This document shows positions 6,014 to 20,898 of a stretch of DNA of 35,750 nucleotides, piece after piece. Positions within the stretch are counted from its first letter, which is position 1, and every line of letters begins with the position of its first letter. Below the pieces are notes generated by a model that was given only the letters and a program-made list of their open reading frames with translations, searched no databases and was not told the DNA's origin. The position numbers were made by a program, and so were the translations under genes. Source of the stretch: Nitrospirota bacterium (GTDB lineage Bacteria > Nitrospirota > Thermodesulfovibrionia > SZUA-242); NCBI GenBank assembly GCA_003235715.1, contig QJVM01000027.1:1-35750 (forward strand), in the 5' to 3' direction.

Positions 6014-6382
6014 CTATTTCTCCAGGAATTGGCTTACGATCCCGACCAGTTCCTGAGTCTGGATCGGCTTCGCGAGATAAGCATTGGCGCCCAGCGCAAG
6101 GGCCCGTTGCCGATCTTCCTCAGCCCCTTCCGTCGTGATAATCACGATGGGAATATCCTTGTACTCAGGGGTGCCCCGTAGGTGGTGAACCAGCTTCAGG
6201 CCATCCATCACCGGCATATTGATATCGGCAACAATCACGTCGAATTGCCGCTCCCCAATCAGCCGCAGAGCTTCCACCCCGTCCATCGCCTCAGTCACCC
6301 TGGCATCCTTCAGGCGTCGAAGCGCGAAGGACACGAGTTGCCGCATGGTGGGCGAGTCTTCGACAATTAGAATTTCCGCCAT
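6014..6382 (-). CDS. cheY: CheY-like single-domain response regulator
   Basis: A 122-residue receiver domain with no output domain. The acidic pocket is Glu8-Asp9, the phosphoacceptor is Asp53 in VADINMP, the switch Thr lies in IVIITTEG, and the conserved lysine is Lys105 in AKPIQ. It is the last gene of the chemosensory locus, after cheB, with an AAAGGG ribosome site just before its ATG. It probably accepts phosphate from the CheA of this locus and passes the signal to an unidentified output or acts as a phosphate sink. A second CheY-like gene opens the locus at 19987. The two share the same plan but differ in sequence. Confidence 0.9.
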   Translation of the reverse strand: MAEILIVEDSPTMRQLVSFALRRLKDARVTEAMDGVEALRLIGERQFDVIVADINMPVMDGLKLVHHLRGTPEYKDIPIVIITTEGAEEDRQRALALGANAYLAKPIQTQELVGIVSQFLEK

Positions 6383-6518: not shown

Positions 6519-7625
6519 TCAGCCCGCATGACCCTGCCGGCCGAATGAACCAGCTTCCGGGGTAACACCACAGATACGGACCATCTCGCCTGGAATCCGG
6601 TCCAGAGGCAACACCTGACGCGCCGCACCGGCCAGAATTGCATCCTGAGGCATGCCGAAGATAACCGCTGTTTCCTCGGATTCGGCAATAGTATAACCAC
6701 CGTTTCCGGTGATTTCCAACATGCCCTTGCGTCCGTCACCCCCCATCCCGGTGAGAAGGATTCCCATGAGTTTTCCCCCACATAGGCGGGCCGCCCCCTC
6801 CATCATCCGGTCGATGGAGGGAACGTAGGAATCCCCATCGCCGGCGTGACGGGTCTGGACAAAAATGCGGCCGCCGGCCTCTCCAAAGTGCGCGTGAGTG
6901 CCGCCTGCCGCGATATAGGCCGTACCCGGACTCAATGTTTCCCGGCCGCTGACTTCCTGTACACGGATGGGGCAGGTCCGGTTCAGCCTTTCCGCAAAAG
7001 TCCGGGTGAATCCGGCGGGCATATGCTGGCTGATAATAATCGGTACCGGAAAGTCTGCCGGAAGCTCCGAGAGAATGAACTGGATGGCCGACGGGCCTCC
7101 CGTGGAGGCTCCGATGGTGACCGCTCGGAGCGTCTGCACGCTCTGGTGGGACTGCCGTATGCGAACACTGCGCGAGAGAAGTTCCACCCTGCGGCGTACC
7201 TTGTCCATTCCCGCCGTGGCCAGGACTGCAATCCTGGAGGATAGTTCCCGGGACATGGAGACCATATCTGCCGTTCCCTGGCCTCTGGGCTTCGCAATGA
7301 AGTCCACTGCGCCGAGGTCCATGGCCTGAAACACCGAGGAGGTTTCGCTCTGGGCGCTGACCACAATCACCGGAATGGGGTGGTGGTGAAGCATCCAGCG
7401 AAGGAAGGCAAATCCGTCCATGACCGGCATCTCGAGGTCCAGAATAACAACGTCGGGTTGGAGTTGGACCACACGACTGATGGCTTCGTGGCCGTTGCCT
7501 GCCGTACCCACGACTTCAAATCCGCCCACGGAGCGTACGATCTGTCCGAAGGCGTGCCGGGTCAGCGCAGAGTCGTCCACCACAAGGACGCGAACCGGCT
7601 TGTCCAGTGCCGCCGGGCCCTTCAT
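6519..7625 (-). CDS. cheB: Chemotaxis response regulator protein-glutamate methylesterase CheB
   Basis: A 368-residue two-domain protein that removes methyl groups from, and deamidates, chemoreceptor glutamate sites. The N-terminal receiver domain has Asp17-Asp18 and phosphoacceptor Asp63 (ILDLEMP). The C-terminal esterase has the catalytic triad Ser174 (GASTGGP), His201 (SQHMPAGFT) and Asp297 (GMGGDG). The domains are joined by an arginine-rich linker at about 140-165. The ATG overlaps the cheR stop by four bases (ATGA), so the methylation and demethylation enzymes are translationally coupled. Length and motif order are standard for CheB. A 136-base gap separates it from the following cheY. 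Confidence 0.95.
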   Translation of the reverse strand: MKGPAALDKPVRVLVVDDSALTRHAFGQIVRSVGGFEVVGTAGNGHEAISRVVQLQPDVVILDLEMPVMDGFAFLRWMLHHHPIPVIVVSAQSETSSVFQAMDLGAVDFIAKPRGQGTADMVSMSRELSSRIAVLATAGMDKVRRRVELLSRSVRIRQSHQSVQTLRAVTIGASTGGPSAIQFILSELPADFPVPIIISQHMPAGFTRTFAERLNRTCPIRVQEVSGRETLSPGTAYIAAGGTHAHFGEAGGRIFVQTRHAGDGDSYVPSIDRMMEGAARLCGGKLMGILLTGMGGDGRKGMLEITGNGGYTIAESEETAVIFGMPQDAILAGAARQVLPLDRIPGEMVRICGVTPEAGSFGRQGHAG

Positions 7626-8485
7626 GGAAGCCCTCCGGGGACCGCTTTCTGGTATACCATGTCATTCTTCAGGTGGCGGAGAGAAAATGCTGTGGAGATG
7701 TTCATAAGAGATTCCGAATGCCCCAGAAGGAGCCAGCCTCCACCCACCAAGCGATCATTAAAGTTCTCCATGACCTTTTTCTTGGCTGTCAGATCAAAAT
7801 AGATCAGGACGTTCCTGCAGAAGATGATGTCCATCGGCTCCAGAAGCCGGGTCCTGACAGAATCCAGAAGGTTCAGATTCCCCAAGGACACATACCTCTT
7901 GACCCCGTCCACAATTCGGTAGGAACCGTCCTCCTCCTGTTCAAAATATTTCCTGAGATAGTAGGCGTCAGTCGTTCTAAAGGAATTCTGGCGATAGACC
8001 CCGAGCCGGGCAACGCCAAGGACCCGCTGATTGATATCGCTTCCAAGAATCTGGATATCCCAGTCCCGGAGCTCAGGGTCCTCCATGATCAACATGGCCA
8101 GGGTATAGGGCTCTTCACCCGTGGAACATCCCGCCGACCAGATCCGGAGTCGGCGCGTCCTCCCTTTCCTATTCTTAAGTTCCGGGAGAATTTCCCTGCT
8201 GAACGCATCGAGTTGGCGCTGCTCACGAAAAAAATACGTCTCGTTAATCGTGAGCACGTCCATGACGTCGACCAGCTCCTCCTCCTTCCGCCGGTCATAG
8301 CGGAGAAACCGGTAATACTCCTTGAAGTCCGAGATATGGAGGATTTTCAATCTCCGGGCAAGCCGCTTTTCAAAGAGCCCCCTCGAACCCTCGTCAAAGA
8401 AAATGCCGCAATAGTCGTGGAAGTAATCCCTTAACAGCCGGAACATTTCGTCGGACAGGGTAACGGATTCGTCAAGCTTGAGCAT
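7622..8485 (-). CDS. cheR: Chemotaxis protein methyltransferase CheR
   Basis: S-adenosylmethionine-dependent methyltransferase that methylates glutamates on chemoreceptors, about 287 residues. It has the small N-terminal helical CheR domain, then the Rossmann-like catalytic domain. The SAM-binding motif is WSAGCSTGEEPYTLA, followed by LGSDIN and FCRNVLIYFD. There is no TPR extension. The ATG at 8485 has GGGAG eight bases upstream and lies inside the end of the HEAT-repeat gene (14-base overlap); a TTG one codon upstream is a less likely start. It overlaps cheB by four bases. Confidence 0.95.
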   Translation of the reverse strand: MLKLDESVTLSDEMFRLLRDYFHDYCGIFFDEGSRGLFEKRLARRLKILHISDFKEYYRFLRYDRRKEEELVDVMDVLTINETYFFREQRQLDAFSREILPELKNRKGRTRRLRIWSAGCSTGEEPYTLAMLIMEDPELRDWDIQILGSDINQRVLGVARLGVYRQNSFRTTDAYYLRKYFEQEEDGSYRIVDGVKRYVSLGNLNLLDSVRTRLLEPMDIIFCRNVLIYFDLTAKKKVMENFNDRLVGGGWLLLGHSESLMNISTAFSLRHLKNDMVYQKAVPGGLP

Positions 8486-10472
8486 CAAGACACTCCCGGA
8501 TCACGAGAGTGACCGAAGGGTCCTCCTCCCGGGTCAGGTGATCCCGGAGGGCCCGCACCGCTTCGCCCGAACGGGAACGTGCGAGGGTTTCCGCCACAGA
8601 CTTGCGAACAGACCAGTCCTCATCCTCCAGCAGAGGCAGGATAGCGCCCTCGGCTTCCGGTCCCCCGACCACAGACGAAACAGCCTGGACCGCACTCCTC
8701 CGGATTTCAGCATCGACATCCTTCAGTGCCGTCTGCAGAACCGGAAAACACTTCTCGCCGCCAACCCTTGCGAGCGTCTCCATAGCGGCGACCCTGACGA
8801 GTCCGCACGGATCCTCAAGCATGCTGACCAGCGTCTGTTCGCTCTCCTCTGAGGTAAAATGCGCAAGCGTCTGTGCCGCTGCCGCCCTGACCCAATCATC
8901 CTCATCACGAGCCACCAGGAGGATATTTTCCAGAGCATGTCTGCTGCCCGTCTCACCAAGGGTGAGTGTTGCGACGCGGCGGATCTCCGGGATTTCATCC
9001 GTGAGGGCCGTCTGAAGGGCTTTCTCGGCGTCTTCACCGCCGATTCGGGAGAGCGCCTCCACGGCCGCCATACGCACAGGGACCTCGGCGTCCTTCAGGG
9101 CAAAGGTCAGGGCGTCGACGGCCGATTTCTCGCGAAGGAGTCCCAGCAGCATTGAGTAGTTCCGGCGGAGAACAGGGTTCTTTTCCTTGAGCATGCTGAT
9201 GGCCCGCGGTCGGGACACACCAACCGGCAGACGGGACAGAGCGAGAACCCCGGCTTCCTGCACATCCTGATACTGATCCGTCAGGAGTCGTTCAATCTCC
9301 GGCACCGCACCGGTGTCCCCCAACTGTCCCAGGGCCAGTGCGGCATAGGCCCGAACATGTCCATCGCTGTCCCGGAGACGCTCACGAAGATGGGCGCCAA
9401 ACTCAGGATGCGCTGTTTCCCTGGCGACACGGCATACCATTCGCCGACGGTAGGGCACTGGCTCACGGAAATACGGGATGAGCGCGGCCGGACGGGCCCG
9501 GGCAATATTCATCAAGGATTCCCAAACCGGCTCCTCGAGGTCCTCGTCCCCTGAAAGCTCGAGGAGAAGCGATAGGGCCCTCTCATCCTCGAGAAATCCA
9601 AGTAGAAGAACAGCCGCCTGTCGCAGTTCCCGCTCTTCTGCCTTGGCGAGGTGGATCAGAAGTTCAAGGGCAGTGCCCGCAAGTTCTCGCTCGATAATTC
9701 CGGCAAACGTCTGGACGGGCGACGCACGGTACATGGAGACCAGCGCACGAAGGGCCTCCAGCTGCACTGGCCTGGATGTGGACGCCAAATAAGGGACTAC
9801 GGCCTCGAAAGCGTCGGGGTGAGCAAGCCGACCCAACGCTCTCAAGGCAGGCTCCCGCAGGGCACGCCTCGACAGTGCCCGAATCAGGGGAGGAACGGCC
9901 CGGGGATCCCGGAACTTGCCCAGAGCATCCGCCGCGGGAAAGGCCACCCAAAGCTCACCTTTCTCCAGGATTTGGATCAACGCGTTCAAGACAGAGGCAT
10001 CCCCGATAATTCCAAGGTGCTCGACCGCGGAGGCCTGAACGTTCTCATCGGAGTCGTGAAGGGCCTCGAGCATGAGTGGAACGCAGGCCGGGTCGCCCAC
10101 TTCGCCAAGGATGTCGATGATGAACTTTCTACGGTCTCGGTCTCCTGATCTGAAGGCGTCCATGAGGCATACGGTCGCCAGTCTTCCGAAACGGATGAGC
10201 GCCTCGATGGAGGAGTTCCGGGCTCCTGCGTTGGCGCGATCATCGAGAAGTTCCAACAGTCCCGGTAGATACTCAGGCCGCCGCCGCGTCACGATGGACT
10301 CCACGGCCGCCTTGCGCACCCTCCAGTCCCCGTCCCTGAGCAGGCTGAGAAGGGCCCCGCGACAAGATTCGTCCGGACATCCCGCCAGGCCGAGGGCGGC
10401 CTGCCGCCGGACCTCCACGTCGGTGGAGCCCGCCTTCTCAAGAAGGCTCTTATGCTCTGTCTGATGCGTCAT
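8472..10472 (-). CDS. HEAT-repeat protein in the chemosensory locus
   Basis: A 666-residue protein made almost wholly of HEAT / PBS-lyase-like repeats of about 31 residues. Recurring units have the form DxDxxVRxAAxxALxxxG, for example DGDWRVRKAAVESI and DSDENVQASAVEHLG. Such solenoids are protein-protein scaffolds. No catalytic motif, signal peptide or membrane segment is seen. The ATG at 10472 has AAAGAGG nine bases upstream; a TTG two codons earlier is possible but too close to that site. It overlaps cheW by 23 bases and cheR by 14, so it is firmly inside the che operon. A role in organising or regulating the receptor-kinase array is inference from position only. Confidence 0.88.
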   Translation of the reverse strand: MTHQTEHKSLLEKAGSTDVEVRRQAALGLAGCPDESCRGALLSLLRDGDWRVRKAAVESIVTRRRPEYLPGLLELLDDRANAGARNSSIEALIRFGRLATVCLMDAFRSGDRDRRKFIIDILGEVGDPACVPLMLEALHDSDENVQASAVEHLGIIGDASVLNALIQILEKGELWVAFPAADALGKFRDPRAVPPLIRALSRRALREPALRALGRLAHPDAFEAVVPYLASTSRPVQLEALRALVSMYRASPVQTFAGIIERELAGTALELLIHLAKAEERELRQAAVLLLGFLEDERALSLLLELSGDEDLEEPVWESLMNIARARPAALIPYFREPVPYRRRMVCRVARETAHPEFGAHLRERLRDSDGHVRAYAALALGQLGDTGAVPEIERLLTDQYQDVQEAGVLALSRLPVGVSRPRAISMLKEKNPVLRRNYSMLLGLLREKSAVDALTFALKDAEVPVRMAAVEALSRIGGEDAEKALQTALTDEIPEIRRVATLTLGETGSRHALENILLVARDEDDWVRAAAAQTLAHFTSEESEQTLVSMLEDPCGLVRVAAMETLARVGGEKCFPVLQTALKDVDAEIRRSAVQAVSSVVGGPEAEGAILPLLEDEDWSVRKSVAETLARSRSGEAVRALRDHLTREEDPSVTLVIRECLDAQA

Positions 10473-10938
10473 GGCCAAGGGCCTCTTTCACTTGCCTCAT
10501 TTCGCCGGCCGACAGCAGACGGTCCACATTGAGAATTACAATCATCCTCCGGTCTGTCTTTGCAATGGACTCCATGTATTCGGACTCAATGCCGCCGAAG
10601 ATGGACGGGGGCTGGCTTATGCAGGAATTCTCCAGTTGGAGGATTTCTTCCACATCATCCACGCGGATTCCCAGACGCTCCCGTCCCTTCTTCAGAATAA
10701 TGACCCGGTTTTTCGCGGCAGGGTTGGGCTTCAGACCAAAGCGGGTTCTAAGGTCCATTACGGGAATCACGCGTCCCCTTAATTCGATCACCCCCCTAAG
10801 AAAATCGGGCATATTCGGGATGAGCATGCACTCCTGGTCCTGAAGGATTTCCACGATCCGCCCCACACCTAATGCAAACGCCTTGTCCGCCATCCTAAAG
10901 ACGGCAAACTGGCCTGTGACCTCTTTTGTTCGCATCAT
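10450..10938 (-). CDS. cheW: CheW coupling protein (second copy)
   Basis: A 162-residue single CheW domain that bridges chemoreceptors and the CheA kinase. The conserved block is FLRGVIELRGRVIPVMDLRTRFGL, followed by LGIRVDDVEEIL and a C-terminal MIVILNVDRLL. Two ATG codons stand in tandem at 10938 and 10935. The first overlaps the stop of the upstream receptor gene (ATGA). Compared with the CheW at 15868, it lacks the long N-terminal extension. Each CheW in this locus may serve one of the two receptors or occupy different array positions; this is inference. Confidence 0.92.
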   Translation of the reverse strand: MMRTKEVTGQFAVFRMADKAFALGVGRIVEILQDQECMLIPNMPDFLRGVIELRGRVIPVMDLRTRFGLKPNPAAKNRVIILKKGRERLGIRVDDVEEILQLENSCISQPPSIFGGIESEYMESIAKTDRRMIVILNVDRLLSAGEMRQVKEALGHDASDRA

Positions 10939-12914
10939 GCCCGGAATCTTCCCGTCATCGCGTAGAGTTCCTCGGCCTGAGCGGAGAGTTTCGAGATCTG
11001 TTCATCCAGGCATTTCAGGATCTGGGTGTTCCTTGAACACAGCTGGTTCACGTTCGCAAATGCCTCGGTGAGTTCAGGGATGAGCGACCTCTGCGGAGAG
11101 GTCGCCTCCGCGATCTGGAAAAGCTTCTCGTTCGTGCGCTGCAGGTTTTCGGACATTGCCCGGATGCCTTCATGCTGTTCCTGCGTTCCCCTTCGCAGCA
11201 TCTCCACCACGCTTCGAACCGTGCCCACATGTCCACTGAGCGGGGGCAGTCCCTTCTCCTGCCTTGCCAGTGCGCCCGTCACCTGCTGTGTCATGGCCTG
11301 GATATTCGCCACCAGATCGCCCACGTGACGTATGGCCTCTCCCTGCTCGACCGTGGCACGCTGGATGTTAAGAGCCATTTCCGCAGAGCGACGGGCGTGA
11401 TCCAGCATCCCTGTCAGGGCCTCTTCGGTTCGGCCGACGAGGGTCTCCCCTTCCTGGACACGGGACATCCCCCGGGCCGTGCTGTGAATGGCCTCCGCAA
11501 TCTCCTTCTGGATGGCACCGACGATCACGGAAATTTCCCGCGTCGAACCCGCCGTCCTTTCAGCCAGGCTCGCAATCTCGTCGGCAACCACGCCGAAGGC
11601 CTTGCCCTGCTCACCTGCCTGGGCAGCCAGAATGGCGGCGTTCAGACTGAGCAGGTTTGTCTGTTCGGTTACCTCTCGAATGACGCCCAGCACCTTGGTG
11701 ATGTCCTTGGACCTCACTCCCAACTGGTCCATGATCTCCGCAGACGCAGAGACTTCCTGCCTGATCTTGGACATCCCCTTTCGTGTCTCATGGACCGCGG
11801 CCATGCCCGTCCCGCTGGCCTTCTCCGTCACCTCGGCCGCCCGTATGGCCGCATCGTGGGCACTGGCCTCAACACCTCGAACAGAGGCACCAAGTTCGTG
11901 GAGGGCACTTATGGCATTGTCAACCGTCTCCGACAGGGCCGACATGCCCGAGGAAATCTCGCGTGATGAGTCCGATATATCGGAGACCGAAGCGTAGGTC
12001 CTTTCAGCAGATTCGAAAAGTTCATCCGCCGAGTGGGCAACCTCTCCCATGCTGGACCTCATCTCCAGCATGGCCGATACATTTTCATAAAGCAGGGCCG
12101 AAAGCATTTCCGAACTTTCGTGCACATCCCGTTGAGACGCGTCGAGGGCGGACACAAGACGGCCGGCCTCGTCGAGACCTCCCGATTCCACCTGGGCATC
12201 CCCGGAGAACGGAATGAGGCAGTCCCCGGCGGTCAGGCTCTCCCTTCTAAGTCCGGCAGCCACCGCAGCCGAACGCGCTCCCATGTCCCGCAGCGCAACG
12301 AGTTCCTTCTGGATGGCACGCGATAGGGCCGCGAGCCGATCCCTTTCGCTTCCGTGTCCAGGAGTCCCGGCCTCTTCTGCAGGCACGAGCCCGGATACCT
12401 GGGAAACAAAATCCTTCAGGGGCCGCCGGACCAGCTGCCTCCACCCCAAATGCCCTGTAACAGCCAGAAGACAGAGCAGGAAAGCGGTCCCGCCGTATGC
12501 GCGCCCCCTCTTCCTTTGAACCTTCCCGGAAAGAACAGGCTCGGAATAATCGAACACGAGGATTCCGGACATTCCGCTCCAACCCTGAACCGGGTACTCG
12601 AATCGGATGCCCCTGGCAGGTGCCGAACCCCGGGATTCTCTTACGGATCTCTTTACACCGATGGGAGATCCGCCACCTTCCCACGTGACTCCCAGAAGGT
12701 CCCCATCCTTCTCTAGAAAGGCGGCCAGCATCTGTTGGAAACCTTCCGCATCCCGGGGGGATACGCCCACCGTTCCCAAGGTTTCTGAAACAGCCCTGTA
12801 ATGTTCCCTGCTCTCTTCCAGCAGGACGCTTCGGGCTGCGGCGAGCCAAGCCTGGGCCCCGCATATCCAGAGCACGCCCAACGCCGAGGCGAGATAGAAG
12901 AGGTTCCGTTTCAT
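10935..12914 (-). CDS. Methyl-accepting chemotaxis protein
   Basis: Chemoreceptor of about 659 residues from ATG 12914, preceded by GGAG and starting five bases after the previous receptor's stop. An ATG at 13046 is in frame but would lie inside the upstream gene. The order is a membrane segment (about 5-27), a small extracytoplasmic domain (28-138), a second membrane segment (about 139-158), a degenerate HAMP-like linker, and a cytoplasmic signalling coiled coil. The hairpin tip reads TEQTNLLSLNAAILAAQAGE. The conserved glutamate of the usual AAIEAARAGE is replaced by Leu, as in the neighbouring receptor. The sensor domain matches no ligand-binding fold I recognise. Confidence 0.88.
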   Translation of the reverse strand: MKRNLFYLASALGVLWICGAQAWLAAARSVLLEESREHYRAVSETLGTVGVSPRDAEGFQQMLAAFLEKDGDLLGVTWEGGGSPIGVKRSVRESRGSAPARGIRFEYPVQGWSGMSGILVFDYSEPVLSGKVQRKRGRAYGGTAFLLCLLAVTGHLGWRQLVRRPLKDFVSQVSGLVPAEEAGTPGHGSERDRLAALSRAIQKELVALRDMGARSAAVAAGLRRESLTAGDCLIPFSGDAQVESGGLDEAGRLVSALDASQRDVHESSEMLSALLYENVSAMLEMRSSMGEVAHSADELFESAERTYASVSDISDSSREISSGMSALSETVDNAISALHELGASVRGVEASAHDAAIRAAEVTEKASGTGMAAVHETRKGMSKIRQEVSASAEIMDQLGVRSKDITKVLGVIREVTEQTNLLSLNAAILAAQAGEQGKAFGVVADEIASLAERTAGSTREISVIVGAIQKEIAEAIHSTARGMSRVQEGETLVGRTEEALTGMLDHARRSAEMALNIQRATVEQGEAIRHVGDLVANIQAMTQQVTGALARQEKGLPPLSGHVGTVRSVVEMLRRGTQEQHEGIRAMSENLQRTNEKLFQIAEATSPQRSLIPELTEAFANVNQLCSRNTQILKCLDEQISKLSAQAEELYAMTGRFRA

Positions 12915-12918
12915 GTCC

Positions 12919-15789
12919 CTATTTCCAGCTCCCCCTTCCGAGTTTCTCCAGCATCTGCCGGACGGCATCGTAATCCTGATCCGTGGCGGGAATAAAGGCC
13001 GTGTATTCGGGGTTGATGGATTCGAGCACCTGCCGTCCTCTCGCATCGGATACGTTTAGGGAGAAGAGGGCCCGCTTGAGCAGTTCCTCCTTTGGCGGGG
13101 CCAGGAAAGGCGACACGCAAATATTGAACTCGGCAATCTCCTCCGAACGGGCCAGGATCCTCAAGCCCTGACTCGCGTACTTGAAGGCCACGGACTCCAT
13201 GAGCCCTCCTGCGTCGTATTCCTTCCGAAGCACAGCCTCCGCCACTTCGTCATGATGGCCGAGGTATTCGTGGGCGCGCAGGTCATCAAGACCCAATCCG
13301 ACTTCCATAAGCATCGCCCGGGGAGCAAGGTGACTGGAAGTGGAACGTTCGTCTCCAAAAGCGAAACTACAGCCCTTCAGGTCCGAAAGGCTCCGATACC
13401 CTGAGTCATCCCTGACCACGATAGCCGCTCGGTGCGCAGGCGCACGCTCAGACCTTTGAGCGCGCGCGATAACTCGAGCGTTACACGCCTCCTTCGCCTC
13501 GATATAGGTCGTGGGTGTCATGAAGGCCAGGTCAATACGGTCATCCTCAAGGTCCCGGATGGTTTCCTGGAAGTCCACCGTTACCCGAAGTTCTATTTCC
13601 AGACCCAAACGTTCTGTCAGGTATTCCGAAAAGGGAAGAAACTTCCGGTACATTTCCGAGGGGGACTCCAGCGGAACGACACCAAGACGGAGGGTCTTTT
13701 CAGCCCGCAACCGGCTGTTGGTCTTGAACCGCCCGACTTCCGTGGCCAGAAGGTCACTGTCCTTGGCCACTTCGCGCACCATGCGATTCATGGCGCCTGA
13801 AATATCCCGGTTCTGTTCCGGAAGGTTCCGAATCTTCTCAAGGGAACCCAGGATCTGGTCCGTACCTACCTTTTGCTCACGGACCCCGCGGGATATGCGC
13901 TGAATTCCTTCCGAGACCCGCTCAACGGCTTCGGCGATCTGCCGACTGCTCCCCGACTGCTCCACCATGGATTTCTCCACCTGGGAGGTAAGTATTCGTA
14001 TGTGATCCGCCGATGCATTGATCAATTTCGAGCCCTTGTTCTGTTCGCTCGTAGCCTTGGCAATCTGTTCCACGCGATCTCTCACATGGGCCATGGCCGT
14101 CGTAACCACCTGCACGCTCTTGGCCTGCTCGGCGGTAACCCGTTCTATGGCGCAGGACATTTCTGAGGAACGGCTGGAAACTTCAACCATTCGGGCAAGT
14201 GCGGCCATGGCGGCCTCCGACAGTTGAATGCCTTCGGCAACCCTCTCGGTGGCATCCTGCATGTGCGACGTAACTTCGCCGACATCGGTCTGTACGGAGC
14301 GAATCAGTTCTGCGATTTCTTTCGTCGAATCTGCCGTTTTTGCCGCAAGTCCCTTAATCTGGCGGGCCACCACGGAAAACCCGCGCCCGTGGTCCCCGGC
14401 CTGAGCGGCCAGGATAGACGCGTTCAACGAAAGAAGCGTCGTCTGGTCGGTGACTTCGTCGATCACCCCCAGAATGCTTCCGATATCCTCCGAACGGGCA
14501 CTGAGACGCTTGATTTGTTCCGACGTGCTCACCACGCTGGCGCGAATCCGGTTCATCCCCTCCACGGTCTTGTGGACGGTCTCCATTCCCTCTCCGGACG
14601 CGGATTGGGCAACAGCCCGGGACAGGCTGACGGAATCCTTGGCACTCCGTTCCACTTCCCGGATGGACGCGCCAATCTCCTCAATCGCCGCCATGGTGTC
14701 CTCCGCGGAGAGAGCCAGTTCACCGGCAGCCCCAGCCACCTCGTTTATGGCCGAAGACATCTCCTCGATGGAGGCAGACGTTTCGTCCACGGCCTCAAAG
14801 AGGTCCCGCGTACGCTGCACCACCTGTTCACTCGAGGCGAACATCTCCGAGGACGTGGCGGCCGTCTCCTCGGCCGATCGGGAGAGTTCGTCGACGCTCC
14901 CCGTAATGATGGACATGGACATGGTCAGTTGTTCCACCGAACTTGAGATGCTTTCGATCGCCCCGGCCTCGAGGGTTGTCCCCTGAAGAAGGTCCCGGGC
15001 ATCCTGACGTAACCGTTCCGTCATGTGTCCAACCCGGTCCGCCACATCCCGGATTCGGTTAACGATCAGAGCCACTTTGAGAAGAGCGTGCTTCAGGTCC
15101 CGGACCATGACCCCAAGTTCATCCCTGGATGTGGATTCCACGTTAAATCCGAGGTCTCCTTCGGAAAGACGGTGGGAGGCCTCGACGACCTCCTTGACGG
15201 GTTTGAGAATCACCTTCCGCAGCATGAGGATGAGGCAGAGGGAAAGGGACAGGATTCCGGCCAAAGACCCCCAAACCGCAAACCACACATACCTTGAGAA
15301 ACGGTTTCGCACCTCGGTCGTGTCGAGCGTGACCATGACCACGCCCAGAATCTCGGCGTCCCGGGCGTGACAGGTCGCGCACGTCTCTCTGTTCAGCATG
15401 GGCCGGTAGAATAACGTTTCTGTCTCGGTTTCGACGGTAACGGGCCCTTTTCTGGTCTGAAGCTTCCGGAGGATCTCCTCGGGGATGATGGGGAGTCCCT
15501 TTTCAAAAGCTCTCCCTCCACGGCCGTTCATGACCTCGACATCCTTGACGCCGGAGATTTCGTGAAGGTCGGCAACGAGGGTCCTGGTTACGTCTAGCTG
15601 CCCCTGCTCCATGGAAGCTTCAACACTTCGTGTGACAACCTCGGCAATGCGCCCGGAGTTCCGCAGGGACAGGTCGCTGAGACCACGGCGCTGCAAGGTC
15701 AGCACAGTGGTACCGATGACTGCAGCGCCGGCCACCATCAACCCGGTTACGAGGGCAAGCACCTTGACATCAATCCGATTCGTCATCAT
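12919..15789 (-). CDS. Chemoreceptor with c-type heme motif and C-terminal PhnD-like domain
   Basis: A 956-residue receptor. Membrane segments at about 9-31 and 168-190 enclose a periplasmic domain of about 135 residues. That domain contains one CxxCH motif (ETCATCHARD, Cys137-Cys140-His141), suggesting covalent heme and redox or gas sensing. A HAMP domain (about 190-243) and a methyl-accepting signalling coiled coil (to about 690, tip QTTLLSLNASILAAQAGD) follow. The last 255 residues (LRLGVVPLESPSEMYRKFLP, IDLAFMTPTTYIEA, FGDERSTSSHLAP) look like a PhnD/phosphonate-type periplasmic-binding-protein fold. No membrane segment follows residue 190, so that domain should be cytoplasmic, which is unusual. 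Tandem ATGs at 15789 and 15786 have a poor ribosome site. A strong hairpin lies in the 78-base gap upstream. Confidence 0.88.
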   Translation of the reverse strand: MMTNRIDVKVLALVTGLMVAGAAVIGTTVLTLQRRGLSDLSLRNSGRIAEVVTRSVEASMEQGQLDVTRTLVADLHEISGVKDVEVMNGRGGRAFEKGLPIIPEEILRKLQTRKGPVTVETETETLFYRPMLNRETCATCHARDAEILGVVMVTLDTTEVRNRFSRYVWFAVWGSLAGILSLSLCLILMLRKVILKPVKEVVEASHRLSEGDLGFNVESTSRDELGVMVRDLKHALLKVALIVNRIRDVADRVGHMTERLRQDARDLLQGTTLEAGAIESISSSVEQLTMSMSIITGSVDELSRSAEETAATSSEMFASSEQVVQRTRDLFEAVDETSASIEEMSSAINEVAGAAGELALSAEDTMAAIEEIGASIREVERSAKDSVSLSRAVAQSASGEGMETVHKTVEGMNRIRASVVSTSEQIKRLSARSEDIGSILGVIDEVTDQTTLLSLNASILAAQAGDHGRGFSVVARQIKGLAAKTADSTKEIAELIRSVQTDVGEVTSHMQDATERVAEGIQLSEAAMAALARMVEVSSRSSEMSCAIERVTAEQAKSVQVVTTAMAHVRDRVEQIAKATSEQNKGSKLINASADHIRILTSQVEKSMVEQSGSSRQIAEAVERVSEGIQRISRGVREQKVGTDQILGSLEKIRNLPEQNRDISGAMNRMVREVAKDSDLLATEVGRFKTNSRLRAEKTLRLGVVPLESPSEMYRKFLPFSEYLTERLGLEIELRVTVDFQETIRDLEDDRIDLAFMTPTTYIEAKEACNARVIARAQRSERAPAHRAAIVVRDDSGYRSLSDLKGCSFAFGDERSTSSHLAPRAMLMEVGLGLDDLRAHEYLGHHDEVAEAVLRKEYDAGGLMESVAFKYASQGLRILARSEEIAEFNICVSPFLAPPKEELLKRALFSLNVSDARGRQVLESINPEYTAFIPATDQDYDAVRQMLEKLGRGSWK

Positions 15790-15835: not shown

Positions 15836-15876
15836 GGACCTTCTCCCGCCCCCCCCACGGAGGCGGGCTACGGTCC
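15836..15876 (-). other. Intercistronic stem-loop at the cheW stop codon
   Basis: On the minus strand GGACC and CCCGCC pair with GGCGGG and GGTCC around a G-rich loop, with a 4-by-4 internal loop. The structure covers the cheW stop codon (15870-15868) and the gap before the heme receptor gene. No T-tract follows it. It could stabilise or process the transcript, or lower expression of downstream genes. Confidence 0.45.
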
Positions 15877-16653
15877 GGTTTCTATCACCAGCAGTTCATC
15901 AAGATTGAGCATGGAGACGAAACGGTGCTCGGTCCGGATCACACCGGTGATAAACCGCGACTCTTCCTCAGAGAGGGTGTTCAGGGACGGCAGGATATCC
16001 TCGGTCCAGGTGGTGAGAACGCCGCTGATGCTGTCCACTTTCGCGCCCACCGGTTCATGGCCTTTGGAGAAAACCAGGATCCTCGGCGCCAGCGGTGCTT
16101 CGCCCCGGATACCGAGTCGCTGCCTCAGGTCGAACACCGGAATCACCCTCCCCCTGAGGGACATGATGCCCAGAAGATAGGAAGGAGTTCGCGGAACCCT
16201 CGTCACTGCACGGTAGAGCTGGACTTCTTTCATCTCCAGCAGGTTGACTGCGTATTCTTCGTCACCCAACCGGAAAGCCAGGAACTTTATCTGATTCCCC
16301 CGTCGGGTCCTGTCCTGAATTTCATCCCGGTCCAGGTAATCGTCGACGTCCGTTTCATCGTCATATTCCGGAAGCGTTTCCACCTCTGCCGGTGTGGGCT
16401 CCGGCGAAAGCGGGACGCCTGGCGTCAAGGTTTCAAGAACCTCTGCGGGCTCTTCCGGGGACAGCCCGCTTCCCGCCGGTAGCGGTTCAGGTTGAAGAAC
16501 AGGCGGTCCCGAAGGCGGGCCGTCGGCCTCAAGCGGGGACTCCCCACCGGATAGGGTGCCCTCCGGGGTCTCCCGATCTACGCGCGCACGTCTCTGCCTC
16601 CGCTCTTCCTCCCGCGCCTCGCGGATCTGCTTACGTATCTTGGATATGTCCAT
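15868..16653 (-). CDS. cheW: CheW domain protein with long N-terminal extension
   Basis: A 261-residue protein. Residues 1-30 are a highly charged helix (REAREEERRQRRAR), 30-95 are proline- and glutamate-rich, and about 96-115 are very acidic (DDETDVDDYLDRDE). A standard CheW domain begins near residue 120 (IKFLAFRLGDEEYAVNLLEM, then LLGIMSLRGRVIPVFDLRQRLG). It couples receptors to CheA. It sits between the AAA ATPase gene and the heme receptor gene. The extension of about 115 residues is not part of a normal CheW and looks disordered; it may tether a partner. Start is ATG 16653 with a weak AGGATG site. Confidence 0.9.
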   Translation of the reverse strand: MDISKIRKQIREAREEERRQRRARVDRETPEGTLSGGESPLEADGPPSGPPVLQPEPLPAGSGLSPEEPAEVLETLTPGVPLSPEPTPAEVETLPEYDDETDVDDYLDRDEIQDRTRRGNQIKFLAFRLGDEEYAVNLLEMKEVQLYRAVTRVPRTPSYLLGIMSLRGRVIPVFDLRQRLGIRGEAPLAPRILVFSKGHEPVGAKVDSISGVLTTWTEDILPSLNTLSEEESRFITGVIRTEHRFVSMLNLDELLVIETGP

Positions 16654-16769: not shown

Positions 16770-17618
16770 CTACTTTTGAGAACCCTCTTTTTCCCACACC
16801 AGGGCTGACGTCGGGACCAGGTCAAAGTCTCGGGCCACGTTGGCCACAATATCGGCATGGATCGAGTCCACCTCACGGATAAACCCTTCGAGCAGGGCGT
16901 TGGAAGCAAGGTTGTTGATGAGGCGAGGCACCCCCGCCGCATAGCGGTAAAGCGCCTCCACGGCGTCATCTTCAAAGAGCGGTTCCTGTCGGCCCGCCAC
17001 GGAAAGCCGATGTTCGATATAGGGCTTAACCTCTCCGGGCAGAAGAGGCCCGAGGTGATACTGCATACCGATTCTTTGGCGGAGGGGTTTCTGAGCAGGC
17101 TGTTTCAGTTTGCGCTGGAGGTCCGGCTGCCCGAGGAGAACCACGCTGACGAGGTTCTCCTCGTCCAGTTGAAAATTCGTGAGGAGCCGGATCTCCTCAA
17201 AAGTTCCCCGCCCGGAAACAAGCTGTGCCTCATCGATAATGACTACGGGAGTCATTCCCCGGCCATACAGGTCGTATAGGCGTCCATAGATCGCCTCCAG
17301 AATATCCTCCTTCTGGAATCGGCCCTCCTCCAGTCCCAGGCGCCGCGCCAGAGTCCGAAGAAACTGCGCCGGTGTGAGACGTGGGTTCAGTACAGTGATC
17401 ACCTGGTGGGTATCGGCGGGAAGAGTGTCCATGAGGGCTCTCGAGAGCGTCGTCTTCCCACATCCCACTTCACCCGTGAGGACCACCAGTTCCTTTTCGA
17501 GAACCGCATACTCGAGACGGGCCAACGCCTCTTCGTGTCGCTTCCCCAGAAAGAGAAAACGGGGGTCCGGCGTCTTGCTGAAAGGCCGGCACGTTAATCC
17601 GTAAAAGGTCTCGTACAC
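16770..17618 (-). CDS. ExeA-like AAA+ ATPase inside the che operon
   Basis: A 282-residue ATPase starting at GTG 17618, three bases after the cheA stop. The N-terminus MYETFYGLTCRPFSKTPDPR is characteristic of ExeA/GspA-type ATPases of secretion and surface systems. Walker A is GEVGCGKTT (49-57), Walker B is VVIIDEAQ (about 125-132), and sensor and arginine regions follow (LLGQPDL, LRQRI). There is no membrane segment or peptidoglycan-binding domain after the ATPase core, unlike full-length ExeA. Tight linkage to cheA suggests a role in the chemosensory system, such as array placement or coupling to an envelope machine. That role is inference; the ATPase family is firm. Confidence 0.88.
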   Translation of the reverse strand: MYETFYGLTCRPFSKTPDPRFLFLGKRHEEALARLEYAVLEKELVVLTGEVGCGKTTLSRALMDTLPADTHQVITVLNPRLTPAQFLRTLARRLGLEEGRFQKEDILEAIYGRLYDLYGRGMTPVVIIDEAQLVSGRGTFEEIRLLTNFQLDEENLVSVVLLGQPDLQRKLKQPAQKPLRQRIGMQYHLGPLLPGEVKPYIEHRLSVAGRQEPLFEDDAVEALYRYAAGVPRLINNLASNALLEGFIREVDSIHADIVANVARDFDLVPTSALVWEKEGSQK

Positions 17619-17621
17619 AGC

Positions 17622-19622
17622 CTACCCCGCACCGGATGGGGCCTTTTGCGTCCGGCTGGTTGCCTCCTCCATCAGGGCTTCCACGTCCAGAACCAGGATG
17701 ATCTTGTGCTTACCAACTTCGGCCGCCCCGGCAATGCCCCTCAGGTTCTCCAGATGCCTTCCCAAAGCCTTGATCACGATTTCCTGCTGCCCGATGAGGT
17801 CATCCACCACAAAGCCCATCCTCCGCCCACCAAAACCGGTAACGACGACATAGGTGGCCTCGGCCCGTCGCACGCTCTCCAGCCCGAATATCTTCTGCAA
17901 CCGGACGAGGGGAAGCAATCCGCCCCGGAGTTCGAGGACCTCCTTCCCCTCGATGTACTGTATATCCCCCTCATCAATGAGGAGAGTCTCGGCCGTGGAT
18001 ACAATGGGCACAGCAAACGTCTCCCCGGCCACCGACACCAGAATGGCCTTGATGATCGCTAGCGTGATCGGAATCGTCACCGTGACGGTGGTCCCTTTTC
18101 CGACCTCCGTCTCCACTTCTACAAATCCACCCAGAGACGAGACCTTGTCCTTGACCACATCCATCCCCACCCCTCGTCCCGAGACCTCACTGACCGCCGA
18201 AGCTGTGCTCAGCCCGGGTTCGAAGATGAGCTTGACCACTTCCGGGTCATCCAACTCGGCCCCGGCACTCACGAATCCTTTCTCAACCGCCTTCTTGAGA
18301 ACCTTGTCCAGCTGGACCCCGGCACCGTCGTCAGTGATTTGAAAAACCACGTGATGGCCTCTTGGAAAAGCCCTGAGCGTCACGACGCCCCTCTGGGGCT
18401 TGCCCGTTTTCTCCCTCTCTCTGAAGGGTTCGATGCCGTGGTCAATCGCGTTCCGGATGAGATGCATGAGAGGGTCGATCACCTCCTCGGCCAGTAGGGT
18501 ATCGATTTCCGTTTCTTCACCGTAAAGCTGCAGATCGATTTCCTTACCCCGGTCCTGGGTGTATCGACGGACGACTCTCGTCAACCGGGAAAAGATCTGA
18601 CCCACCGGCACCATCCGGACCTCGAGAATCTGGTTCTGGAGTTCGTTCAGACGTTTCTCCAATCCCTTGGCCACCTTCTGAAGATCCGCCCCATGGGACG
18701 AATATCCGTGATCTTCCAGAAATTCCGCTCCGATCCGGGCCACCGCACCCTTGGTCAGGACCAGTTCCCCCACCGTGTTCAGAATCGCATCCAGTTTGGA
18801 AACATCCACCCGCACAGTGTTTGAAGAACTCTTCAGGAGAGGGTCCTGCCGGCCCGAAGGTTCGGCCTCTTGACCAGCCTCGGCCGGCTTCGGGCCCGAA
18901 GGCGAAACCAGCTCTTCCACGATCGCGCCCTTGAACAGCTCCTTCATTTGTTCCCTGGACCGGGTTGTCCCCACCACCAAGTCGAACCCGAGGTTACCGG
19001 GCTCAACCTTTGTAGACTTGGGCATCGTTGCGATCAATTCGCCGAGGGTTCCGATCTTCGCCGTGACAGACTTGAGCTCCTCCTCAAAAGCCATGAGATC
19101 GAACTCCACGCTTACCGTAAACACGCCTTTGCCTGCGGCAACCCCTGTCCGAAGACGGTGCTCTTCATACTCGGACAGGACCCGGGAAATGGATTCCGGG
19201 ATTCCCGGGACACGTCCCCGGGGCTCTTCTGGCACCCCTCCCTTGGTTCGAAACTCTGCGATCTCCGACAGGACCTCTTCTACCGAAGTGCCTTCCGACT
19301 TTCCGCCCGCCACTTCACCAAGCAGCGTCTTCAGAAAGTCCACGATGGAGAGGAGAAAGGCCACGGTCCGCTCGTCAAAAGGTCTCTTCCCCAACCGAAG
19401 TTCATCCAGCAGGGTCTCCGTGCCGTGACTGAGATCTGAAATCCCCTTCTGTCCGAAAAGACCAGCCAACCCCTTCATGGTGTGCATGGATCGAAAGACA
19501 CCGTTGAGCGTATCGGGGCGGGGGCTGCCAGGCAAGGCGTCTCGAAGGTCGAGAAGACCGTCTTCGGTCTCCCGGAGCAGCTCCTCGGCCTCCGAGATGA
19601 ATTCCTTCATGGGGTCGGTCAT
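17622..19622 (-). CDS. cheA: Chemotaxis histidine kinase CheA
   Basis: A 666-residue sensor kinase that phosphorylates CheY and CheB. The HPt domain carries phospho-accepting His47 in SMHTMKGLAGLFG. A P2-like region lies at about 165-235 and is not the textbook E. coli type. The dimerisation helix pair spans about 270-345. The ATPase N box is LIRNAIDHGIE (388-398), G1 is DDGAGV (431-436), the F region is FEPGLSTA, and G2 is GRGVGMDVV (482-490). A CheW-like regulatory domain runs from about 520 to 655. The start overlaps the stop of the upstream cheY by four bases (ATGA). It is the only CheA in the window, so both receptors, both CheW and both CheY probably work with it. Confidence 0.96.
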   Translation of the reverse strand: MTDPMKEFISEAEELLRETEDGLLDLRDALPGSPRPDTLNGVFRSMHTMKGLAGLFGQKGISDLSHGTETLLDELRLGKRPFDERTVAFLLSIVDFLKTLLGEVAGGKSEGTSVEEVLSEIAEFRTKGGVPEEPRGRVPGIPESISRVLSEYEEHRLRTGVAAGKGVFTVSVEFDLMAFEEELKSVTAKIGTLGELIATMPKSTKVEPGNLGFDLVVGTTRSREQMKELFKGAIVEELVSPSGPKPAEAGQEAEPSGRQDPLLKSSSNTVRVDVSKLDAILNTVGELVLTKGAVARIGAEFLEDHGYSSHGADLQKVAKGLEKRLNELQNQILEVRMVPVGQIFSRLTRVVRRYTQDRGKEIDLQLYGEETEIDTLLAEEVIDPLMHLIRNAIDHGIEPFREREKTGKPQRGVVTLRAFPRGHHVVFQITDDGAGVQLDKVLKKAVEKGFVSAGAELDDPEVVKLIFEPGLSTASAVSEVSGRGVGMDVVKDKVSSLGGFVEVETEVGKGTTVTVTIPITLAIIKAILVSVAGETFAVPIVSTAETLLIDEGDIQYIEGKEVLELRGGLLPLVRLQKIFGLESVRRAEATYVVVTGFGGRRMGFVVDDLIGQQEIVIKALGRHLENLRGIAGAAEVGKHKIILVLDVEALMEEATSRTQKAPSGAG

Positions 19623-19987
19623 ACCATCAGGACTTTTTTGACCAGATCCTTCAAGGCATCTCCCTTGAACGGCTTGGTGACATAGTCAAAGGCACCAAGG
19701 GCCATCCCCCGCCGGCGATCTTCCTCCCCGCGCTCCGTCGTAATGATAATGAGCGGAATCTCCCGGTAGGTCGGGTTGCTCTTGACGAAATTGATGAGCT
19801 CGAGCCCATTGATGTCGGGCATGTTGATGTCCGTCAGGATAAGATGGAACGTTCGCGAGGGAAGCAGCCTCAGCGCTTCGAACCCGGATTCGGCCTCCAC
19901 GATATCCAGTTCCTCCACCTCCTCAAGGGTGGAGCGGATCATGGCCCGGGTCGTAGTGGAATCTTCGACAATCAATACGGATCTCAC
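19619..19987 (-). CDS. cheY: CheY-like response regulator at the head of the che locus
   Basis: A 122-residue receiver domain from GTG 19987, which has GAGGGGG seven bases upstream. A longer frame from 20035 would add an arginine-rich stretch that is not part of the fold. The acidic pocket is Glu8-Asp9, the phosphoacceptor is Asp53 (LTDINMP), the switch Thr is in IIITTERG, and the lysine is Lys105 (TKPFK). It ends overlapping the cheA start (ATGA). It probably receives phosphate from that kinase. The nature of the output (motor, pili or another process) cannot be read from this window. Confidence 0.92.
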   Translation of the reverse strand: MRSVLIVEDSTTTRAMIRSTLEEVEELDIVEAESGFEALRLLPSRTFHLILTDINMPDINGLELINFVKSNPTYREIPLIIITTERGEEDRRRGMALGAFDYVTKPFKGDALKDLVKKVLMV

Positions 19988-20178
19988 GGTGTTTCCCCCT
20001 CGTCGGCGCCGGCCGTACCATTCACCGAAGCCCAAATGCCCATCATAGGGACGGGATGAGGCATGGCAAAGTCAACGCCTAGATTATTATCCTTCGTCAC
20101 TCTCGTAATCGGTATTAAAGCTCGATCCGAAATTCAGAGCGGCCCCCAGCCGCGACAGGGGCTGGACCTGGTCCCGTG
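19988..20178 (-). promoter_or_regulatory. Leader region ahead of the che locus
   Basis: This 191-base gap between queC and the first cheY is the only sizeable non-coding stretch before the che genes, so it probably holds their promoter. It contains an AT-rich patch (about 20080-20120) in GC-rich surroundings and a TTGACT hexamer (20075-20070). The best TATGAT downstream (20047-20042) is 22 bases away, which is too far for a normal promoter. No convincing sigma-28 or sigma-54 site was seen. A CCAGCC/GGCTGG hairpin just after queC may end its transcript. Confidence 0.3.
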
Positions 20179-20898
20179 TCATCCCCCGCCCCGGCCCGGG
20201 AGGGGTCGCAAGGGGTCGCTCAGGCCCGCCTCCGTAAACCCCCGTTCTCGAAGGATACAGCTATCACAGTCCCCACAGGGTTTGCCCTCTGCATCCGGAT
20301 TGTAACAACTCCAGGTGGACGCGAAATCGACACCCAGGCTTCGGCCCAGAAGAATAATCTGCGCCTTGGTCAGCTGGATGAGAGGCGTACGGATGTATAG
20401 ACGCTTGCCCCCCTCGGTCGTCATTCGCGTGGCCAGATTCGCCATCTGTTCAAAGGCCGCCACATACTCGGGACGACAATCAGGGTAGCCGCTGTAATCC
20501 AGAGCATTCATGCCGGCAAAGATATCGCAGATACGCAGGACTTCCGCCCAGGCCAGGGCATAAGAGAGAAAGATTGTATTGCGGGCCGGTACGTACGTCA
20601 CAGGGATCTCTGAAGGCCCTCCTTCAGAGGGAATACGTCCCTTCGGAACCTCGATCGCCCTTGATGTCAGGGCCGAACCGCCAATACGCCCGAGTTCCAG
20701 GGAAAGGACGAGGTGTTCGACGCATTGGAGCTTCCGTGCCGTCTCTCCTGCAGCCTCCAGTTCCTTCCTGTGCCGTTGCCCGTAATCAAAAGAAAGAGCG
20801 TAGAGTCGGTACCCCTCGGACCGTGCGACAGCGGCCGACGTGGCGGAATCAAGCCCCCCACTCAGCAGAACCACAGCTCCCGGTCGCTCAGCAGCCAT
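20179..20898 (-). CDS. queC: 7-cyano-7-deazaguanine synthase QueC
   Basis: A 239-residue enzyme that converts 7-carboxy-7-deazaguanine to preQ0 with ATP and ammonia, in queuosine tRNA modification. The PP-loop is [10 protein letters not shown] (about 11-20). The family blocks [25 protein letters not shown] and [20 protein letters not shown] are all present. The four zinc-binding cysteines are Cys198, 208, 211 and 214 (CYNP...CGDCDSC). It stands alone here, without queD, queE or queF. The ribosome site lies within a GGGAAAG/CTTTCCC inverted repeat immediately before the ATG. The end [11 protein letters not shown] is slightly longer than usual and low in complexity. Confidence 0.95.

Follow-up and report, generated by a model that had tools for sequence, protein, structure and literature searches.

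Binding proteins of the PtxB/PhnD family are known as extracytoplasmic catchers, and here we describe a conserved version that appears to sit on the inner end of a chemoreceptor. Sensing, and not transport alone, is served by the PtxB-like binding proteins AioX, ArrX and XAC2383. In PtxB, an S-T-S motif and a His grip the oxygens of phosphite (PMC5700983). In the numbering of the Pseudomonas stutzeri protein, the oxygens are gripped by S124-T125-S126, H155, Y49 and Y94, and Y203 sits over the P-H as a cap fastened by D16; our placing of Y49 and Y203 comes from alignments combined with the residues Y55 and Y208 given for T. erythraeum in PMC5700983. The substitution Y208F in T. erythraeum PtxB strongly lowers the binding of both phosphite and phosphate (PMC5700983), and loss of the Tyr cap within the PtxB/PhnD family accompanies larger ligands, e.g. 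glycerol phosphates, as in GpxB (PMC12718374). Among chemoreceptors, TlpD provides a solved precedent for a C-terminal sensor on the returning MCP helix, its CZB domains lying astride the coiled coil (PMC12871147, preprint).

The stretch of DNA analysed here (the window) comprises 35,750 nucleotides of contig QJVM01000027.1 from a Nitrospirota bacterium. A single open reading frame at 12919-15789, free of internal stops, encodes a chemoreceptor (MCP) of 956 residues with a C-terminal, putatively cytoplasmic Phosphonate-bd domain (ORF and Pfam); this gene, the features within it and the che genes around it all lie on the minus strand. Hydropathy gives two transmembrane segments, TM1 (residues ~8-26; 15712-15768; 2.12) and TM2 (~172-190; 15220-15276; 2.21), followed by HAMP (190-234; 15088-15222; Pfam E 8.8e-8) and by the MCP coiled-coil hairpin (~235-686; 13732-15087), whose two arms of about 220-230 residues were delimited from Pfam MCPsignal and the AlphaFold2 (AF2) helices. 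MCPsignal itself (PF00015) covers residues 394-570 with E 7e-41, and the CheA/CheW-binding end of the hairpin, with AGDHG at 464-468 (14386-14400; sequence and model), reads AAILAAQAGDHG. MCPsignal with a hairpin tip, HAMP with two transmembrane segments, and CheA, CheW, CheR and CheB genes in one cluster together identify the protein as an MCP.

The last part of the protein (~699-950; 12940-13695) is a type II binding-protein domain of the PtxB/PhnD fold. PF12974 (Phosphonate-bd) matches residues 702-940 over its entire profile (1-242 of 242) with E 7e-60 and a score of 202.8 bits (cut-off 27), and the receptor also passes NCBIfam TIGR01098 (phosphate/phosphite/phosphonate substrate-binding; 135.7 against 112). 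Residues 690-956 were modelled with AlphaFold2 at pLDDT 92.0 and pTM 0.85, and the model has the two-lobe type II fold. In Foldseek against the PDB, PtxB structures of Prochlorococcus, Pseudomonas stutzeri and Trichodesmium rank first (5lv1, E 7.6e-30, TM 0.86; also 5o2j and 5jvb), then ArrX and PhnD (3p7i, E 1.8e-26); by sequence the nearest is P. stutzeri PtxB (E 2.6e-31). The view of the initial annotation that a PhnD-like binding-protein fold follows HAMP and the signalling coil is thus upheld by Pfam, model and fold comparison. Comparison with other genomes showed, in addition, that the MCP-Phosphonate-bd fusion recurs. The 99 fused domains collected stand on two MCP backbones, a long form with the tip AAILAAQAG and a C-terminal arm of about 222 residues, and a short form with the tip AAIEAARAG and an arm of 131 residues.

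The gene lies within a che cluster whose members were assigned by Pfam, with synteny for the AAA and HEAT genes. Their order is a receiver-domain protein (19619-20035), CheA (17622-19622), an AAA ATPase (16770-17618), a CheW-domain protein (15868-16653), the 956-residue receptor, a second chemoreceptor without a binding domain (10935-12914), CheW (10450-10938), a HEAT-repeat protein (8472-10478), CheR (7622-8488), CheB (6519-7625) and a CheY-like receiver (6014-6382). The same gene order was observed at most Nitrospirota long-form loci, where the HEAT gene (between CheW and CheR) and the AAA gene (between CheA and CheW) belong to the constant set; a che cluster of this composition is possibly an undescribed chemosensory class. 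The two receptors of the cluster could share one array, because the C-terminal arm of the second matches in length (225 residues). Both have the tip AAILAAQAG and so lack the Glu and Arg of the canonical AAIEAARAG, residues that in the receptors of E. coli are close to the trimer contact. The source genome has five MCPs, one clear and one weak CheA, and a match of FliG type. A QueC gene (20179-20898) stands between the receiver gene and the DUF4388 gene of the cluster, as it does among the fetched loci only at L028, L034 and L035. Tandem Phosphonate-bd proteins (two domains, 550-630 residues) are common in this class, and one of them in the source genome (L144) has a receiver protein nearby.

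On the outer side, the putative periplasmic sensor domain (~31-170; 15280-15699) resembles PF21563, Mcp40H-20_sensor-like (Pfam E 0.0015), and PDB 3b47 (E 7.8e-5). The window protein scores 19.3 bits, under the PF21563 cut-off of 27, while 15 of 16 family members match at E<=0.01, the best at 7e-9. Within this domain lies a CxxCH haem-c attachment motif, CATCH (137-141; 15367-15381). In an alignment with orthologues from 15 other genomes (39-51% identity to the window protein; one of them, L032, without ectodomain), C137, C140 and H141 are nearly invariant. A CxxCH motif is present in the N-terminal part of 58 of the 99 fused proteins, and the others have a different ectodomain (L120-L127, L134, L137) or none (the 20 short receptors and L032, L034, L047 and L076), where a few apparent losses may stem from truncated contigs or disrupted frames (L062, L087) and L004 is a truncated version of the window gene. 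To judge from these sequences, the constant part of the fused receptors is the binding domain, the ectodomain being exchanged or absent.

We hold it reasonably probable that the protein works as a two-input transmembrane chemoreceptor, in which an outer haem-c sensor and an inner flytrap for phosphoryl-type oxyanions control CheA through the coiled coil. Outside, the CxxCH domain, if occupied by haem, would probably read redox state or a gas. Inside, the 'Venus flytrap' of PtxB/PhnD type at the end of the C-terminal helix would bind a cytoplasmic oxyanion of phosphoryl type, either phosphate or some small phospho-compound, and closure of its two lobes on the ligand would alter the packing of the coiled coil beside HAMP. 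This change might then travel the ~220 residues to the tip and set the activity of CheA. A mechanism the same in outline as that of TlpD is proposed by analogy. Sensing of an internal ligand appears to be the best-supported function of the C-terminal domain, a cytoplasmic phosphate or phospho-metabolite is our best guess for the ligand, and the cells would probably steer by an internal phosphorus-type signal plus an external one.

The anion site bears directly on this reading. S816-T817-S818 (13336-13344) align with PtxB S124-T125-S126, the motif that binds phosphoryl oxygens, and H846 (13252-13254) is the counterpart of H155. Over the fused domains S816 and P823 are conserved in 99 of 99, H846 in 96 (97%) and T817 in 90 (91%), against a median column of 60%. 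The remainder of the pocket differs from PtxB: in the window protein Y49 is replaced by F740, Y94 by H786, the cap Y203 by F888 and the latch D16 by L707. Short forms keep both pocket tyrosines and likewise have the Phe cap and the Leu. Conserved and changed residues taken together indicate that the half gripping the phosphoryl group is constrained while the half selecting the rest of the ligand has been altered; and the effect of Y208F, with the changed lobe-1 side of the pocket in the window's lineage, means that the ligand may be quite different. At one locus (L137, 3771-13999) two MCP fusion genes with an altered anion-site motif (SST/SAT, the His partly lost) flank a gene for a separate binding protein, and these fusions may bind something else.

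The changes in the lobe-1 pocket and the cap suit another explanation, namely that the domain keeps the binding-protein fold as a docking or spacing module and has given up small-ligand sensing. Its partners could be CheR/CheB, the membrane, the HEAT or AAA protein, or neighbouring receptors, and the two conserved accessory genes, HEAT and AAA, share its operon. The S-T or the His is, moreover, altered in 10 of the 79 long forms. However, S816, P823 and H846 are within the 20 most conserved of 264 columns across the 99 domains, and the short forms, whose fetched flanks contain neither HEAT nor AAA genes, retain the S-T...H site in 20 of 20. We therefore regard a pure docking role as unlikely, though it is the main rival to internal-ligand sensing.

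A specific response to phosphite or arsenate, on the model of PtxB or ArrX and coupled to arsenate respiration or to reduced-phosphorus oxidation, seems decidedly less probable still. Of the solved structures PtxB and ArrX come closest, but the capping Tyr to which PtxB owes its preference for phosphite has given way to Phe in 97 of the 99 fused domains, and every one of them has Leu or Ile in place of its partner Asp. A role in transport is also unlikely. ABC substrate-binding proteins are exported and have a partner permease and ATPase, whereas this domain is internal to an MCP. Among the genes of the che cluster, Pfam recognised none for a transporter. Two Acidulodesulfobacteriota genomes contain no further PF12974 protein, so that the fused domain is their sole copy, and a profile search of the window's genome gave no PhnE match over the cut-off; it is on this sole copy and the lack of a PhnE match that we base the judgement.

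Internal sensing further depends on the side of the membrane and on the position along the hairpin. Hydropathy agrees with the earlier statement that no membrane segment intervenes: beyond the two N-terminal segments, no 19-residue mean exceeds 1.0 after residue 400 of the 956. Because TM2 is the last membrane segment, the topology usual for MCPs would place the C-terminal domain in the cytoplasm. Members of the family usually act extracytoplasmically (Pfam description), which might suggest a missed membrane segment or dual topology with the domain outside the cytoplasmic membrane. This is very improbable: 98 of the 99 fused proteins have no hydrophobic segment past the N-terminal membrane region, the single weak peak (L121, residues 850-868) falls within the folded domain, and the domain directly follows the cytoplasmic MCP module.

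The full-length AF2 model (monomer) shows a hairpin of helices, interrupted at 464-468, and a confident C-terminal domain; the N-terminal arm extends about 230 residues from HAMP and the C-terminal arm about 220, its helix ending at 686. The initial annotation had put the domain at the array end of the receptor, and this location did not stand, the tip being in the middle of the hairpin with arms of about equal length. The domain begins where the returning helix meets HAMP, at the membrane-proximal end, a position that rests on the arm lengths because the global confidence of the full-length model is low (pTM just 0.40). Tip and domain are 221-229 residues apart in the 78 long-form proteins with a recognisable tip and 130-133 in the 20 short-form proteins. 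With the spacing fixed in each form, the binding domain stays at the end of the C-terminal arm despite the differing length of the hairpin.

The fusion is widespread. In a phylum survey (E<=1e-75) the domain subfamily was found in 92 of 396 Nitrospirota genomes and 63 of 174 genera; the matches listed are all in open frames of 639-1417 residues, and every match fetched is an MCP fusion. About 60 loci came from a named genome collection, almost all of them under the titles Nitrospirota/Nitrospirae or Thermodesulfovibrionia; the collection also yielded 15 receptors of some 640 residues, one titled Candidatus Acididesulfobacter (Acidulodesulfobacteriota) and one Deltaproteobacteria, the rest grouping with them; distribution beyond Nitrospirota and Acidulodesulfobacteriota was seen through one pattern-based scan. 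The Acidulodesulfobacteriota fusion is the shorter receptor without any ectodomain. Nitrospirota short-form receptors (L129-L133) lie off the main che cluster, mostly near large receiver-containing proteins (455-1142 residues). Among the annotated matches listed in a tblastn search of plasmids, only separate PhnD-like proteins were present. The source draft genome comprises 271 contigs, but an assembly or gene-calling artefact joining two genes has next to no probability and is refuted by the identical join, with fixed spacing, in dozens of independent genomes.

In a tree without long branches (tandem-PBP rows and L008 left out, long forms thinned) the fused domains group in a single clade (99/97) that excludes every separate binding protein in the sample and splits into the long form (97/95) and the short form (100/99); a first tree that included the long-branch tandem-PBP rows put domain 1 of L005 among the fused domains. 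Independent capture of two unrelated binding proteins is unsupported, the long-form and short-form domains being sister clades. Both a single gain that later passed from one MCP type to the other and two separate gains from close relatives would explain the origin. The fused receptors make up a conserved family of long standing. This family and the haem-c motif of the periplasmic domain had both been overlooked in the earlier interpretation, which is supported in part.

The conserved domain build apparently has not been described so far, on a known kind of receptor (an MCP with a C-terminal sensor): in the open-access literature searched, no published description of an MCP with a C-terminal Phosphonate-bd domain was found. 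More tentatively than for the two-input reading, we propose that these proteins may constitute a chemoreceptor class joining an external (often haem-c) signal with internal phosphorus status, by means of a secreted-type binding protein relocated to the receptor's cytoplasmic end, on two MCP backbones in Nitrospirota and Acidulodesulfobacteriota. One molecule would combine an exchangeable outside sensor with a constant inside sensor. Such a receptor offers a testable case of chemotaxis under the control of an internal metabolite, and bears on how a signal enters the hairpin from the C-terminal arm.

With the PtxB/PhnD binding proteins (PF12974, TIGR01098) the receptor domain shares the fold, coverage of the whole domain and the S-T...H phosphoryl site; it differs in that it is not secreted, has no ABC transporter and is fused to the MCP C-terminus, with Phe and Leu for the capping Tyr and latch Asp of PtxB. 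AioX, ArrX and XAC2383 have the PtxB-like fold, and their solved structures lie near the model of the receptor domain, but they are separate periplasmic proteins whereas here the domain would be a cytoplasmic-side fusion. The haem-c chemoreceptors of Geobacter (PF21563; PDB 3b47, 3b42) share the periplasmic CxxCH sensor and the TM-HAMP-MCP order; the window receptor has a longer hairpin, and the Geobacter proteins are not known to carry a C-terminal binding domain. Finally, the CZB chemoreceptors (H. pylori TlpD, Salmonella McpA; PMC12871147) share a cytoplasmic sensor at the end of the C-terminal MCP helix, far from the kinase tip. CZB is, however, a small zinc-binding helical bundle, whereas the window receptor carries a two-lobed domain of 250 residues on a transmembrane protein with HAMP.
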